This document shows, one piece after another, positions 24,152 through 31,773 of a DNA stretch of 64,000 bases. The stretch is taken from NCBI RefSeq assembly GCF_002078605.1, contig NZ_MSJR01000002.1, positions 248,001-312,000 on the forward strand, given 5' to 3'. This DNA comes from Salegentibacter sediminis (lineage in GTDB: Bacteria > Bacteroidota > Bacteroidia > Flavobacteriales > Flavobacteriaceae). Each line of letters opens with the position of its first letter. Position 1 is the first letter of the stretch. The position numbers and the translations under genes were made by a program. The notes beneath the pieces were generated by a model that did no database searches, was not told the origin of the DNA, and saw nothing but the letters and a program-made list of their open reading frames with translations.

Positions 24152-25168
24152 ATGATTACAGATAAGAAACAACTGCTGTTGATTACCAGCAGGAGCGAAC
24201 TCGAGAGGGGCATTAAGGATGGGCTAAGTTTACATTTTGAAGTTAATACGGCTACTTCCTTACATACGGGTTTTAATACGGCCCTCAATTTATTACCAGA
24301 TATTATTCTGATTGATTATGCTTCCTATAGATCGGGAAGAAACTTTAAAAATATCTCCAATTTTAAATCCACCCATTTTCTCAATAAAGCCTGGCTGATC
24401 GTTTATGCCGATGAAAGTTTGAAGATGGAAGTAGAGAGTCGTTTTAGAAGAGTAGTTGATGAATTTATCTATTCACCCACCGTTCCAGCTCTCTGCGGAA
24501 AAATCATAAAACTCGTATTCGCGAATAATTCGCTTTCTAATTTTTGGAAAGATTCCTTTATGGGGCTCTTCAATTTAATGGCTAAGCCTGTGGTATTGCT
24601 TCAACAGGATGAAATTATTGCGATGAATGATTCTTTCCGGCAGCATTTTAGGATCGAGAAAACCCAGGGATTAAAACTTACCGATCTAGTACAATGTGAA
24701 AATAAAGCTAAGGTGAAGAATGCCCTTCGTAATTTTGGCAGAGGCAAGCATATGAAAGCATCTACAAAAACGGCTCTTCTTCTTAGGTCTAATAAGGTAC
24801 GCGATGCAAAAATAAGTTTCTCAAAACTAAATAAGAACTACGGGAATCATTTTATTATGATTATAGATTTTAATGGAGATGAGGTGTTGGTAAATCCCAA
24901 GCTCGGGACAAATTCAGAATTGGTGGAGGCTTGTTTTAAGGAAAATAGTAATATTCCGAAATTTAGCTTCACTAAAAGAGAAAAAGAGATTATCCAGTTA
25001 TTGATCAAAGGATATAAAACAAAAGATATTTCTTCCACCTTATTTATTTCTCCAAAAACCATAGAGAAGCATCGCTCCAATATTATTAAAAGAACAAATT
25101 CTGAAACTATTCTTGAAAGTATTATCTATGCCATTAATCATAATTTGATTGATTTTCAAAAGGCCTGA
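24152..25168 (+). CDS. Receiver-like/PAS-like/LuxR-type HTH transcriptional regulator (ORF extends to 24110)
   Basis: N-terminal LPDIILIDY receiver-like; NLMAKPVVLLQQDEIIAMNDSFRQHF PAS-like; C-terminal FTKREKEIIQLLIKGYKTKDISSTLFISPKTIEKHRSNI. Confidence 0.8.
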   Translation: MITDKKQLLLITSRSELERGIKDGLSLHFEVNTATSLHTGFNTALNLLPDIILIDYASYRSGRNFKNISNFKSTHFLNKAWLIVYADESLKMEVESRFRRVVDEFIYSPTVPALCGKIIKLVFANNSLSNFWKDSFMGLFNLMAKPVVLLQQDEIIAMNDSFRQHFRIEKTQGLKLTDLVQCENKAKVKNALRNFGRGKHMKASTKTALLLRSNKVRDAKISFSKLNKNYGNHFIMIIDFNGDEVLVNPKLGTNSELVEACFKENSNIPKFSFTKREKEIIQLLIKGYKTKDISSTLFISPKTIEKHRSNIIKRTNSETILESIIYAINHNLIDFQKA

Positions 25169-25396
25169 TTCTTACATTTAATTCATTATTACGGGATTTC
25201 CCCCATGGTACTCCGGCAACAATTATTCTACTTTTATATTAGAATTTTAGGATAAGATAGTCACCCCACTTTCCATCTTGTCTGTATGTGAACTTTCCCC
25301 AACAACTGTGTTTAATGCATTATTGATAGATCACCCATTTTGGGTACCTATATATTTATTAACCATTCTAAAATAATTATTAACTAAAAATCTTTA

Positions 25397-27064
25397 ATGA
25401 TGAAAAACTTTAGGTATTTTTTTTCAGCAATTGCAATTTTTGCAATGCTATTTAGCTCCTGTAGTAAGGAGGACAACCCATCGGTTGTTGAAAATCAGGA
25501 AAAAGCGACGCTTTCGTTTGCTTCTGCTTTAAATGACTTGATGGATAATGCCAATAAACAGGCAATAGGTGACTTAATTCCCCTGTGTAGTGAAGATGTG
25601 CCGGCGTATGTACACGTAGTACTTACCGGAGAGGAAAATGTGGGTACTATGGCCGATCCTCTAATGATTCCCGTAAATGAAACCCCTATTGAAGAGGATG
25701 GGGAAATGGTATATTTCACTGAGGAATCTGCCGACCTGGAATTAACTCCAGGAGATTACGAGCTTACCTATTTTGCGGTTTATAGTGAGGACGATATCCT
25801 TATTTGGTTAGCCCCTACTACAGGAGGTGATCTGGAGGACTTCGTAGATAACCCTTTACCGATTGATATTTCGCTTGGAGCCGGAGTTAAGAAGTACGTA
25901 GATGTTGAAGTCCTATGTTTTGATGATCGTCTGGTCAATGAATATGGATACTTATTCTTTGATATTATTGGTAAGGAAGCCTTTGAATTTTGCTTCTTTG
26001 CGAATTATTGCGATGATAACGGTCGACACTATCCTGCACGTTACTCAGTAGATATCTGGTTAGAAGGTGAAGATGAAATGCTTTATTCAGGGGTGATTAA
26101 TGATGTTGATGCCACCGGGGATGATCCATCTGCAAAGACTTTATGTTTTGCACTTCCAAATATTCCTTCATACGGTGACGATGTAGAATACATCCATTAT
26201 GAAATAACCCTGCTTGATTGGGATGAAGTATATGGAACAGTTGGAGACTTTACTGAAAGCGGATCTCTGAGCCGAAATGAAATTGAAGCTAATTTTGATG
26301 GAGATGACAATGTAGATTATGAACACATCCGTTTCAACTGTGGCGATACACCTCCCCCACCAAATGATGACGATGATGATGGCTGGCCAAATGATGATGA
26401 CAACTGTCCTAATGATTACAATCCGGACCAACTAAATTCTGATGATGATAGCTTTGGAGATGTTTGTGATAACTGTCCTTTCGTAGATAATGAAAATCAG
26501 GACGATACTGATGAAGATGGTGTAGGAGATGCCTGTGATGTATGTCCTGATGAGGATGACAATGTCGATGACAATCAAAATGGAATTCCAGACTGTCTGG
26601 AAGATGATAACGGAGACGATTGTGAAACAGATCTTGATACCTGTGAAACTGCCTTTATGGTTGGTAATTACACCCTACAGGACCTTGAACTAGGGAACAA
26701 CCGTTGGGGATGGGCCCTTAACTTCGACGGTGCTGATGGAACTTATGAGTATGACATTTATGCCGCAGCAGGTAAAAATGACACTGATAAAGGCTATTTA
26801 GTAGGTGTAGTTCATTTAACTGTAGAGGGCGATGATGTAACCGTAGATATTGATCTATGTGATGGCGCAGATGCTGAAGGTGGTCATATATACTTCGATG
26901 ATGAAGATATGCCAACCTCTACTGCTCCCGGACAATTTGGATATGAACTTCCAGCATTCGAAGACGACTATAGCTGGAGTACTGACGATGAGTATTCCGG
27001 TGACGGAGACTTCTGGTTGGTAGTACACCTGGATGTTTGTCCTGGAGATGAGGATATGGACTAG
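25397..27064 (+). CDS. Lipoprotein paralog 1 with thrombospondin type 3-like Ca-binding repeats
   Basis: LFSSCSK lipobox; [58 protein letters not shown]. Confidence 0.75.
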
Positions 27065-27236
27065 ATAATTTTAAATGTAGCAAAATTAATATCCGGTTCT
27101 CCATACAGAATAATGGAGAGCCGGAGATTAATCAGCTTCATATCTCACTGGGATTATTGAAAAATCAAAGGCCAACCGGCCATCTCAATAATTCTTATTA
27201 ACCATTCAATTATTTATTAACCTTAATTTTTTAATT

Positions 27237-28628
27237 ATGAAAAACTTTAAACTATTCCTTGGAGGTTTTGCGGTTTTCGCGATGCTTTTCACCTCCTGTA
27301 GTAAGGATGAAACTCCGTTGATCGAGAACGGAGGCGAGAAAGCAACTCTTTCCTTTGGGGCACTTCTTAACGATCTTGTTACCACCAGTAGACAACAGGC
27401 CGATCTCGGTATTCCTGCCTGTGTAGATGATGCTCCGGCTTATGTTGAGGTAATTCTTACCGGAGATGAGAATATTGGAACTGAAGAAGAACCATTGGTA
27501 ATTAATGTTCATCCCACCCCTATTCAAGAAGATGGACAGGATGTATGGTTCACCCAGGAATCTGGGGACCTTGAGTTAACTCCTGGTGATTATGTATTAA
27601 CCTATTTTGCGGTATACAATGAAGGGGGGGATATGATTTGGCTTGCGCCCACTTCCGGGGGAGATCTTGCCGATTTTGTAGATAATCCACTTCCGCTGGA
27701 TATCAGTCTGGGAGCCGGTGTAAAAAAATATGTTGACGTAGAAGTGCTGTGTTTTGATAACCGTATGGTTAATGAATATGGATACCTGTTCTTCGACATA
27801 ATTGGAAAACAAGCCATTGAGTTCTGTATTTTCGGAAACTTCTGTCCTCCTAGTGGAAGACACTATCCTGCTGCCTTTAGTGTAGATGTATGGGTATGGG
27901 AAGATGGAGAAAAAGGTACTCAGCTTTATGATGACCTAAGCAATACCGTAGAATTAAATGACGATGGAGACTGGGCAGGAACCCCATTATGTATGGCCTT
28001 GCCAGACACCAGTGAGGATGATGAATACTATTATGAAATAACACTTTTAAGTTCTGATGCTTATGGAGATGTTACTGAAGAAATAATTAGAGTTGGAAGT
28101 ATTACCGATCAGGAAGTAAAAAGCTTCTTTGATGGGGAAGATAACCTGGATTACTGGCACTTCCGCGAAGGTTGTGAAACCGGGGATGAACCTCCTATTT
28201 TCCAGGATCCAAGAGATGATGCCAAGCATTATAAAGCCTGTTTATATCCTGAAAACGGATCTGAGGTATTTGGTTTTGCTTACTTCAAGTTGGAAGATGA
28301 TATGCTAAGAGCTACTGTTATGGCTACCAACCTTGAAAAAGGTATGCATAAAACACATCCTCAACATATTCATGAGGGTGATAGCTGTGATGATTCCGGA
28401 GGGCCAATCTTTGACTTGAAGGAACAAAACGGAGAATGGCCAAGGGCTCATTCTATGTGGGGATCGCTTAATTATAACAGAGAATTCACTCTAAGCCCCG
28501 CTGAATTAACCGCCTTAGGACAACTGCAAAATAGAACTATCAACATCCATGGAATGACGGTAGACGGGGAATATGTTCCCGGGATACCTGTTGCATGTGG
28601 AGCGATTGATTTACATGAATTTGACTAA
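27237..28628 (+). CDS. Lipoprotein paralog 2 with a different C-terminal domain (CHRD/SOD-like HIHEG motif)
   Basis: LFTSCSK lipobox; N-terminal region shared with flanking ORFs; C-terminal KTHPQHIHEGDSCDDSGGPI. Confidence 0.72.
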   Translation: MKNFKLFLGGFAVFAMLFTSCSKDETPLIENGGEKATLSFGALLNDLVTTSRQQADLGIPACVDDAPAYVEVILTGDENIGTEEEPLVINVHPTPIQEDGQDVWFTQESGDLELTPGDYVLTYFAVYNEGGDMIWLAPTSGGDLADFVDNPLPLDISLGAGVKKYVDVEVLCFDNRMVNEYGYLFFDIIGKQAIEFCIFGNFCPPSGRHYPAAFSVDVWVWEDGEKGTQLYDDLSNTVELNDDGDWAGTPLCMALPDTSEDDEYYYEITLLSSDAYGDVTEEIIRVGSITDQEVKSFFDGEDNLDYWHFREGCETGDEPPIFQDPRDDAKHYKACLYPENGSEVFGFAYFKLEDDMLRATVMATNLEKGMHKTHPQHIHEGDSCDDSGGPIFDLKEQNGEWPRAHSMWGSLNYNREFTLSPAELTALGQLQNRTINIHGMTVDGEYVPGIPVACGAIDLHEFD

Positions 28629-28631
28629 AAT

Positions 28632-28668
28632 AAAAAAGGGAAAGGTGTAATACGCCTTTCCCTTTTTA
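28632..28668. terminator. Rho-independent terminator-like hairpin between paralogs 2 and 3
   Basis: AAAAAGGGAAAGGTG-taata-CGCCTTTCCCTTTTT. Confidence 0.85.
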
Positions 28669-28709
28669 AATACCAAACACTTTAATAACCATTCTTAAAT
28701 ATTTTAATT

Positions 28710-30290
28710 ATGAAAAATTTTAATAAGTACATTGGAGCCATTGCAATAATAGCAATGTTATTTACCTCGTGTAGTAAAGAAGAAACCGATGTTTTACCAG
28801 ATGATGCCAAGGCCACATTATCCTTTGGAACTGTCTTAAATGATCTTGTGGACAACAGCAGACAGCAGGCTAATTTAGGTATTCCTACTTGTGTTGATGA
28901 TGAACCTGCATATGTCGAAATTGTTCTTACCGGAGACGAAAACGTAGGTAGTATGGAAGAACCTTTAGTAGTTAATGTTCACCCCACACCTATCCAGGAA
29001 GATGGGGAAGATGTATGGTTTACTCAGGAGTCCACAGATCTTGAACTGACTCCGGGGGATTATGTCCTTACTTATTTCGCTGTCTTCAATGAAGGCGGAG
29101 ATATGATCTGGCTTGCTCCCACAAGTGGAGGTGATCTAGAGGATTTTGTGGATAATGCGCTGCCTTTGGATATAAGTCTTGGAGCCGGAGTTAAAAAATA
29201 TGTAGATGTTGAGGTTCTTTGTTTTGATGACCGCATGGTTAACGAATATGGATACCTGTTCTTTGACATTATTGGAAAAGAGGCTTTTGAATTCTGTGTG
29301 TTTGCCAATTATTGCGATGAAAATGGAAGACATTATCCTGCCTACTACTCATTTGAAGTATATATGGGAACCGATGACAGCGGGGATTTACTATATAATG
29401 AATTATTATATCCTGTACCTAATACAGATGGTGAAGATCCATCAGTAGCACCATTATGTTTTGCGCTACCTAATCCAACTGATCTGGGTGGTGATGTGCC
29501 TTATATCTACTGGAGAGCTACTTTGGAAGATTGGGATGATGTTTATGGGGAAGCTCCGGATATTGTTCTTGATGGTACCTTAACCCGAAACGCTATAATG
29601 TCGCTCTTAAATGATGATGGTACAACTTCCGAGTATGCTCACTTGAGATTCGGATGTGAGGATGATAATGGTGGAGGTGATGAATGTGATTTAACTGATC
29701 CGGAAGCTGATTGTGATAATGACGGTGTGCTGAATGGAGTTGACGATTGTCCTGAAACTCCTGGTACAGTGGCAACAGATGGTTGTCCTGATGGTGATGG
29801 CGATGGAATAAGAGACAGTCTGGATAACTGTCCTGAATTAGCTAATCCAGACCAGGAACCAGATGCCGATTGTGATGGTATTATTGATGCTGATGAAGCT
29901 GAAGGTTGTGTTAATAATCCAGATCCAAACTGTGGAGCAGTGGTGGTAGTTCCTTGTTTACCAGATCCTGATACTTCAAGTAACTGTGAGACTACAAGCT
30001 TTAATGTGGATAATGTGAGTGATGAATTTCCTTACGAATTTCTTGTTGATGGTACTGTAGTAGGAAATGTAGGAGTAAGTGTTGATGCTAACGGGGATGT
30101 AATTATTGAAATTACCATGAATATATCTAATGATGCTTACTTAGTTGATGAGACCGAAGTTATTATTGGAGACTATATAGAATGTTTCGATTTCGAGAAT
30201 GTAGGCACTGCGACAATGACTATCGAGGGCGATTACTCTTTAGGATTTGATTTGGATATGCGGGTAAATGTTTGCCCGGCGATAAATTAA
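28710..30290 (+). CDS. Lipoprotein paralog 3 with thrombospondin type 3-like repeats
   Basis: LFTSCSK lipobox; shared N-terminal region; DCDNDGVLNGVDDCPETPGTVATDGCPDGDGDGIRDSLDNCPELANPDQ. Confidence 0.75.
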   Translation: MKNFNKYIGAIAIIAMLFTSCSKEETDVLPDDAKATLSFGTVLNDLVDNSRQQANLGIPTCVDDEPAYVEIVLTGDENVGSMEEPLVVNVHPTPIQEDGEDVWFTQESTDLELTPGDYVLTYFAVFNEGGDMIWLAPTSGGDLEDFVDNALPLDISLGAGVKKYVDVEVLCFDDRMVNEYGYLFFDIIGKEAFEFCVFANYCDENGRHYPAYYSFEVYMGTDDSGDLLYNELLYPVPNTDGEDPSVAPLCFALPNPTDLGGDVPYIYWRATLEDWDDVYGEAPDIVLDGTLTRNAIMSLLNDDGTTSEYAHLRFGCEDDNGGGDECDLTDPEADCDNDGVLNGVDDCPETPGTVATDGCPDGDGDGIRDSLDNCPELANPDQEPDADCDGIIDADEAEGCVNNPDPNCGAVVVVPCLPDPDTSSNCETTSFNVDNVSDEFPYEFLVDGTVVGNVGVSVDANGDVIIEITMNISNDAYLVDETEVIIGDYIECFDFENVGTATMTIEGDYSLGFDLDMRVNVCPAIN

Positions 30291-30356: not shown

Positions 30357-30385
30357 ATTATCATCCTTTAGGTTGGTAGTAAAAG

Positions 30386-30418
30386 AGGCTGTTCGGATTT
30401 TCCGAACAGCTTTTTTTG
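30386..30418. terminator. Rho-independent terminator-like hairpin
   Basis: GCTGTTCGGA-ttt-TCCGAACAGC followed by TTTTTTT. Confidence 0.85.
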
Positions 30419-30747: not shown

Positions 30748-31773
30748 ATGAGAAAAAGCAAATTTATGTTACTATCGGTTCTAACGATTCTGGCCTGTAG
30801 TAAAGATCCAATTAATGAAACGGAAGAAGCAGAAACGCAAACAGGGACCAACGAAGTTGGGGAATCACTTACAGAGATAGCCTATCCCGATAATGTTGGC
30901 CCCGTATCGGAGATTTATTATACCGGACAAAAAATTCCGGTCGAGAAACACGGTAAGGATTACGTTTATCAGGGGGATATAATGATTCCTGCCCATTTAG
31001 CCAGTTCAGAGCCCCAAAAACTGGTTTATGAAAAAGGCGAAAAAATTGATTTTAAAAGTGTAGGCCGTACCAATGGTTTATGGCCAGATAATAAAGTTTA
31101 TTACGCCATTGACGGAAGCTTACCTAATAAAGACAGGGTTTATGATGCCTTGAAGCATTGGGAGGCTAACACCAACATGGAATTTATAGAAAGATCAGGA
31201 CAGTCAAATTATATATACTTCACTTCCGGATCAGGATGTTCTTCTTATGTTGGAATGATTGGGGGGAAACAAAATATCACCCTTTCCAGCAGCTGTTCTA
31301 CCGGGAATACCATTCACGAGATTGGGCATGCGGTAGGCCTTTGGCACGAGCAAAGTCGGGCTGACAGGAATAACTATATTACCGTACATTATGATAATGT
31401 AAAAAGTGGAACAGAGCATAATTTTCATACCTACGATGAAGGTGGATTTGATGGAGATGAGTATACTTCCAGCCTGGATCTTGGGTCTATAATGATGTAT
31501 GGTTCTTATTCTTTTTCAAAAAATGGAGAGCCAACCATAACAAGGACGGATGGGAGCACCTATAATGTACAACGAACTCAATTGTCCAGTGGGGACAAGA
31601 AAGGGATAGCGGCAATGTATCCTGGAGGTACAACTGCTCCTACTTATGAAAACGGAGAATACTATACTATAAATGGAGTGACGGTTCTCCGAATGTATGA
31701 TAAATGGTATCTGAAAACCCAGTTTGGTTGGAGACAATTAAATTTAATAGATGGCGTTTGGTACTGGGCGTAA
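30748..31773 (+). CDS. Astacin-family (M12A) zinc metalloprotease, probable lipoprotein
   Basis: HEIGHAVGLWHEQSR (HExxHxxGxxHE) with Met-turn region SIMMYGSYSF; N-terminal TILACSKD. Confidence 0.9.
   Translation: MRKSKFMLLSVLTILACSKDPINETEEAETQTGTNEVGESLTEIAYPDNVGPVSEIYYTGQKIPVEKHGKDYVYQGDIMIPAHLASSEPQKLVYEKGEKIDFKSVGRTNGLWPDNKVYYAIDGSLPNKDRVYDALKHWEANTNMEFIERSGQSNYIYFTSGSGCSSYVGMIGGKQNITLSSSCSTGNTIHEIGHAVGLWHEQSRADRNNYITVHYDNVKSGTEHNFHTYDEGGFDGDEYTSSLDLGSIMMYGSYSFSKNGEPTITRTDGSTYNVQRTQLSSGDKKGIAAMYPGGTTAPTYENGEYYTINGVTVLRMYDKWYLKTQFGWRQLNLIDGVWYWA

Follow-up and report, generated by a model that had tools for sequence, protein, structure and literature searches.

A tandem array of putative surface lipoproteins with a shared base and a hypervariable tip in Salegentibacter sediminis

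Three lipoprotein genes of Salegentibacter sediminis stand in tandem on the plus strand behind an orphan LuxR/NarL-type regulator gene, begin alike and end differently, which raises the question of what such a set is built to do. They lie in the window analysed here, a stretch of 64,000 nucleotides (contig NZ_MSJR01000002.1, positions 248,001 to 312,000) whose own numbering is used throughout. Gene 1 (25,397–27,064) encodes a shared N-terminal base, a stalk resembling thrombospondin type 3 (TSP3) repeats and a tip designated RWGW; gene 2 (27,237–28,628) encodes the base and a tip resembling superoxide dismutase (SOD) or CHRD domains; and gene 3 (28,710–30,290) encodes the base, a TSP3 stalk and a hypervariable tip. 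The initial annotation of this DNA had described three tandem paralogous open reading frames (ORFs), each with a lipobox, and the upstream regulator; all are present, the lipobox regions reading CSKED, CSKDE and CSKEE. It is fairly probable, in our judgement, that the base serves as a pedestal on the cell surface, bearing binding tips that can be exchanged, with a role in adhesion or recognition, and that gene 3 is under diversifying pressure. The proteins would sit on the outer membrane as surface lipoproteins composed of pedestal, stalk and tip: the base would be the fixed anchoring and export part, the Asp-rich TSP3-type stalks would hold the C-terminal tip clear of the membrane, and the work, either binding or, in dispersed copies, catalysis, would fall to that tip.

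The constant region claimed in the initial annotation is real, but it spans about 280 amino acids after the lipobox (residues ~35–316) and not about 190; the motifs quoted earlier are its most conserved stretch. This base consists of two domains (D1 and D2), occupies positions 25,505–26,341 in gene 1, 27,342–28,175 in gene 2 and 28,812–29,657 in gene 3, is 61–67% identical among the three proteins and ends at a conserved H[LFI]R..C; the shared part as a whole opens with the signal peptide and lipobox. Its core reaches 87–93% protein identity, yet the fraction of identical fourfold sites between paralogs is only 0.29–0.50; recent gene conversion is thus ruled out as the cause of the constant core, and the likeness of the paralogs is attributed to purifying selection. 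The shared domain had been reported as unrecognised, and profile searches likewise returned no characterised domain: neither Pfam nor NCBIfam has a family that covers the base in the window copies or in the 80 members searched, DUF4458 being below the cut-off in the window copy and giving weak matches in 10 of the 80 (best E 0.0022). Searches of solved structures by sequence gave no convincing match for the base, the CHRD tip or the RWGW tip, and those of the literature returned no paper on thrombospondin-type proteins in Salegentibacter and, when broadened, nothing relevant to the base family. The same base with other tails recurs in 21 of 120 related genomes searched, in up to 15 copies per genome, so the three-ORF array is not a product of chance. 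Named records bearing it belong to Salegentibacter, Salinimicrobium, Gillisia and Christiangramia/Gramella, and a wider search of 348 genomes of the order gave matches in only seven, several of them remote. The base is a new conserved domain family, characterised by a signal peptide, an export signal, two predicted beta-sandwiches and the highly conserved linker VNxYGYxFF.

The optimal lipoprotein export signal of Capnocytophaga canimorsus is C-X-K-(D/E)2-X (PMC5080379). The pattern C-x-K-(D/E)2 is found at the cysteine of all three window copies and in 93 of 117 scorable base copies (79%), versus 4 of 38 other lipoproteins from the same loci (11%; p 2e-14); a stricter form of the pattern showed the same trend against a small control set. 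A lipobox was recognised by a simple pattern in 115 of 134 base proteins of relatives, as well as in the three window copies, while the array proteins gave no Pfam or NCBIfam match to a type IX C-terminal secretion domain. We infer that the array proteins are located at the surface of the outer membrane. They resemble the surface-exposed lipoproteins of Bacteroidetes in having a lipobox followed by this signal (PMC5080379). In those, the signal described so far is a short peptide carried by unrelated proteins, whereas the array family brings a conserved base of ~280 amino acids and a leader sequence along with it.

The stretch of gene 2 used for structure prediction was modelled with AF2 (mean pLDDT 88, pTM 0.52) as two beta-rich domains, at residues ~1–142 and 156–290 of the modelled stretch, with a low-confidence linker that contains the conserved VNEYGYLFF. 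A Foldseek search with this model ranked the Mfa2 anchor 5nfi first (probability 0.97, E 2.7e-4, TM-score ~0.22), the Bacteroides ovatus adhesin 5cag second (0.91) and the SpaE basal pilin third, again with low TM-scores. The fold may therefore be a pair of beta-sandwiches that is, among known structures, most like type V pilus anchors. These matches, the predicted two-domain lipoprotein itself and a weak hit of the NCBIfam Mfa1 family to the start of the gene 2 protein would suit a fimbria-like assembly, in which the base is a divergent subunit or anchor of a type V (Mfa/Fim-type) pilus, the array members co-assemble and the tips are adhesins. We regard such an assembly as quite unlikely, given that PF08842 has no match in the S. 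sediminis genome, that no fimbrillin family exceeds its cut-off in 80 base members, that no fimbrial genes lie beside the array, that the base has large tails fused to it and that the TM-scores are low. Membership of the type V pilus system itself was rejected on the same lack of PF08842 or fimbrillin matches and of a gene cluster for shaft and tip subunits. The base thus shares with Mfa2 (PMC5789003) and the fimbrillins a lipid anchor and two predicted beta-sandwiches with cysteines, and differs from them in sequence membership, in genomic setting and in the long C-terminal tails fused to it.

Beyond the base, the three proteins continue into unrelated C-termini, as had been noted. In gene 1, an Asp/Cys-rich TSP3-like stalk (26,342–26,626) precedes the RWGW tip (26,627–27,061), a beta domain without a Pfam match; in gene 3, the TSP3 stalk (29,658–29,912) leads to the hypervariable tip (29,913–30,287, taken as the last 125 amino acids). 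The TSP3-like repeats that had been assigned to both copies are borne out for gene 3 by PF02412 (26.5 bits, cut-off 25); gene 1 is not listed for this family, and its repeats are recognised by an NCBIfam MtsC match (residues 316–415, 1.2e-10) and by eye. These stalks are probably Ca2+-binding. They share Asp/Cys-rich repeats with thrombospondin type 3 repeat proteins, but here the stalk is an optional and replaceable part rather than the defining one; in genome G013 (L085:7739–9241), the RWGW gene keeps its tip while the TSP3 stalk is replaced by a Gly/Asp repeat. The tail of gene 2 (28,176–28,625) has the invariant residues Q63, H64, H66, C71, H125 and C141 (tail numbering), comprising a QHxH, a further His and two Cys. 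Its HxH, terminal His and Cys-Gly pattern recall Cu/Zn superoxide dismutase and CHRD domains, but the cut-off of 28.9 bits was not reached by the whole of gene 2 (13.4 bits) or by the tip alone (16.7 bits), and any catalytic metal set would be putative. Among 25 tips of this type, Sod_Cu was matched in 10 and CHRD in 5, all weakly. An EF-hand-like calcium loop occurs in the CHRD-type tips of Salinimicrobium and Gillisia (A4 members, e.g., L050, L051 and L086) and is missing from that of the window.

Across the relatives' members, more than 15 tail types were found on the one base. Pfam supports DUF7133/GSDH (L016), TSP3 with ABC_transp_aux/DUF4350-like (L017), VCPO_N/PAP2 (L058), GSDH at 3.6e-31 (L068), FAA_hydrolase (L073) and TTHB210-like (L033) tails, and weakly DUF7467, MAM and CHRD; the range thus extends from TSP3 stalks with small beta domains and SOD/CHRD-like or MAM-like tails to haloperoxidases, sorbosone-dehydrogenase propellers, FAA hydrolases and others. 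The enzyme-like tails of the dispersed copies (VCPO_N/PAP2, GSDH, FAA hydrolase, DUF4350) would be expected if the base were a generic anchor for unrelated surface enzymes and substrate-binding proteins, and the locus a metabolic one devoted to nutrient capture. This explanation is unlikely, since the tips in the conserved array are small beta domains and not enzymes, no transporter or SusC/D genes adjoin it, and one of its positions is hypervariable between close relatives, which is unusual for housekeeping metabolism. The RWGW domain, whose model has a pLDDT of 88 and found no PDB structure at E <= 0.001, also occurs on other scaffolds in other Flavobacteriia, namely small lipoproteins and larger repeat-containing proteins with ends like those of the type IX secretion system (T9SS); the latter look like T9SS adhesins. 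A second RWGW domain is present in S. sediminis itself, near a contig start, as part of a larger protein whose C-terminal end is T9SS-like (G000:C2:263-721, L196).

The proposal that the family arose by duplication and C-terminal replacement is upheld by this diversity of tails, by the tree of bases and by the mosaic DNA of gene 3. The tail labels need 37 changes on the tree, which comprises 134 bases, the minimum being 18. Close relatives were compared two by two, in 46 pairs of genomes whose regulators agree at 85% or more; genomes recur among the pairs, which do not count as independent. Median identities were 91% for the LuxR-type regulator, 93% for the phosphomannomutase (PMM), 81% for the CHRD tip and 82% for the RWGW tip, whereas those of gene 3 were 77% in D1, 64% in D2, 56% in the stalk and 23% in the tip. 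In 14 of the 46 pairs, D1 of gene 3 exceeds 75% identity together with a tip below about 30%. At the DNA level, gene 3 of genomes G003 and G002 is 75–90% identical up to position 1200 of the coding sequence, 41–63% over the tip and 85% beyond it, and between G012 and G014 identity falls to 59–61% in D2 with 88–97% on both sides. The tip classes of gene 3 require 8 changes on a tree of uvrA, PMM and LuxR, against a minimum of 3, and gene 3 of G002 joins a base like that of G003 to the tip class of G004, G011, G012 and G014. An ordinary expansion of a gene family, in which the tips differ through fast point mutation rather than exchange, is contradicted by this mosaic DNA, that is, by sharp drops in identity flanked by high identity and by the combination in G002; the conserved positions of the gene 3 tips are similarly spaced by eye, and the tips may thus share one fold, but we hold such an expansion to be very improbable. 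According to these comparisons, the order of the array is ancient and its hypervariability resides mainly in the tip of one position, to which the MAM gene of other Salegentibacter, with divergent alleles too, is to be added. In the pedestal account, genes 1 and 2 would have fixed functions, while gene 3 would be the slot open to variation, where recombination between flanking homologies exchanges the tip and at times the stalk and D2 as well.

Exchange of end pieces between close relatives is a pattern seen in genes that serve adhesion, recognition or the evasion of attackers. The sequence features assembled here make surface adhesion or recognition the most likely role of the array. A more specific reading, which we put forward tentatively and consider less probable than not, is that the array serves as a locus of polymorphic recognition: specificity for self and non-self, phage or partner would lie in the tip of gene 3, which would be renewed by tip exchange with base and flanks as homology arms, genes 1 and 2 would be fixed partners, and the LuxR-type regulator would time the display. 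Myxococcus TraA (PMC6372800) offers a comparison of working principle only, as a conserved surface protein with a polymorphic recognition part at a conserved locus; its architecture is unrelated to that of the array, and kin recognition belongs to the TraA side of the comparison. A TraB-family match in gene 3 is confined to the TSP3 stretch.

The regulator (24,152–25,168, plus strand; ORF 24,110/24,152–25,168) is taken to start at the ATG at 24,152, the equivalent of the start in relatives, giving 338 amino acids. Of the three domains ascribed to it, the LuxR-type helix-turn-helix at the C-terminus is confirmed (GerE, 53 bits) and the PAS-like middle is weak (PAS_8 below cut-off), while the receiver-like N-terminus gave no Response_reg match and by eye lacks the acidic pair usual there in a phosphorylatable receiver. 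Two possible refutations had been named beforehand, a match of the shared region to a well-characterised domain and a lack of synteny between regulator and array in relatives, and neither came true: the former search gave no such match, and the regulator stands immediately before the array, on its strand, in 22 of 22 genomes where the whole array is in view. In one of them, G009, an inserted ORF on the opposite strand (L078 2538 (-), 412 aa), possibly a transposase-like insertion, lies between the two. The order uvrA, regulator, array, astacin and downstream genes is kept across genera, although uvrA was not seen adjoining the regulator in G005. In the tally of 80 genomes searched, with S. sediminis added, regulator orthologs number 16 and are confined to 15 genomes of the same genus (S. 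sediminis included) and G021. The astacin gene (30,748–31,773, plus strand) encodes a lipoprotein metalloprotease of family M12A (PF01400, 158 bits), with HExxHxxGxxHE present as HEIGHAVGLWHE, and its orthologs (E <= 1e-40) occur in 15 of the 80 genomes, all array-bearing. G010 is the one congener with neither a base copy nor an astacin ortholog, and its regulator, still beside uvrA, is frameshifted near codon 73; in this single assembly, the decay is what would be expected had the regulator lost its function once the array was gone. Synteny, co-occurrence and decay support the proposed control of the array by the adjacent LuxR-type regulator, which most likely governs the set. The astacin lipoprotease most likely works alongside these surface proteins or acts upon them. 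Two astacin-like lipoprotease genes, not one, lie near the array in L087 (Gramella sp. KN1008; 3388 and 4710) and L052 (10345 and 14734).

A leader motif conserved across species, TTATTAACCATTC (25,356–25,368, 27,195–27,207 and, with one mismatch, 28,682–28,694; all plus strand), stands a short way ahead of each start codon of genes 1–3. With 0–2 mismatches and within 70 nt upstream, it precedes 48 of the 86 copies in arrays and 18 of the 53 dispersed ones, compared with 3 of 493 other ORFs. The motif is missing before the regulator and astacin genes in most species and was rejected, as not general, as a common site of regulator, array and astacin. Hairpins with T runs follow gene 2, between genes 2 and 3 (28,633–28,667, inverted repeat I10), and gene 3 (30,381–30,417, I17), both on the plus strand, and suggest separate transcription units; the array genes appear to be such units with a common leader. 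Phase-variable inversion was rejected: of the inverted repeats around the array, those with long arms are weak and dispersed, and the two tight hairpins look like terminators.

Several points weigh against the pedestal account. Surface location and regulatory link are both deductions from sequence, and the leader motif, given its absence before the regulator and astacin genes in most species, need not be the site of the regulator. The frameshift of G010 could be a sequencing error, and the astacin may be a mere neighbour. With a pTM of 0.52, the arrangement of the two base domains is uncertain, and the matches to pilus anchors have TM-scores of only ~0.22. Some relatives carry a base without a tail, so the base may do something by itself, apart from any tip.

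Should the account hold, salt-loving marine Flavobacteriaceae fuse a previously unannotated display module (leader, export signal and two-domain base) to binding domains and enzymes, and one small tip domain is the most variable piece of an otherwise stable locus. Display module and variable tip together make testable what these bacteria recognise, and how Bacteroidota come by surface diversity where no inversion switch is obvious. As new family models, the base and the RWGW domain would be of use for annotation.

Besides uvrA, regulator and astacin, the array is flanked by genes that, named by reading of the sequence, would be of the ACP phosphodiesterase, phosphomannomutase and LpxL types. 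Two further base copies are present in the S. sediminis genome (3.26 Mb): that on C5 has no tail, and that on C16, without a Pfam match, has a tail with a vWA-like DxSGS recognised by eye.

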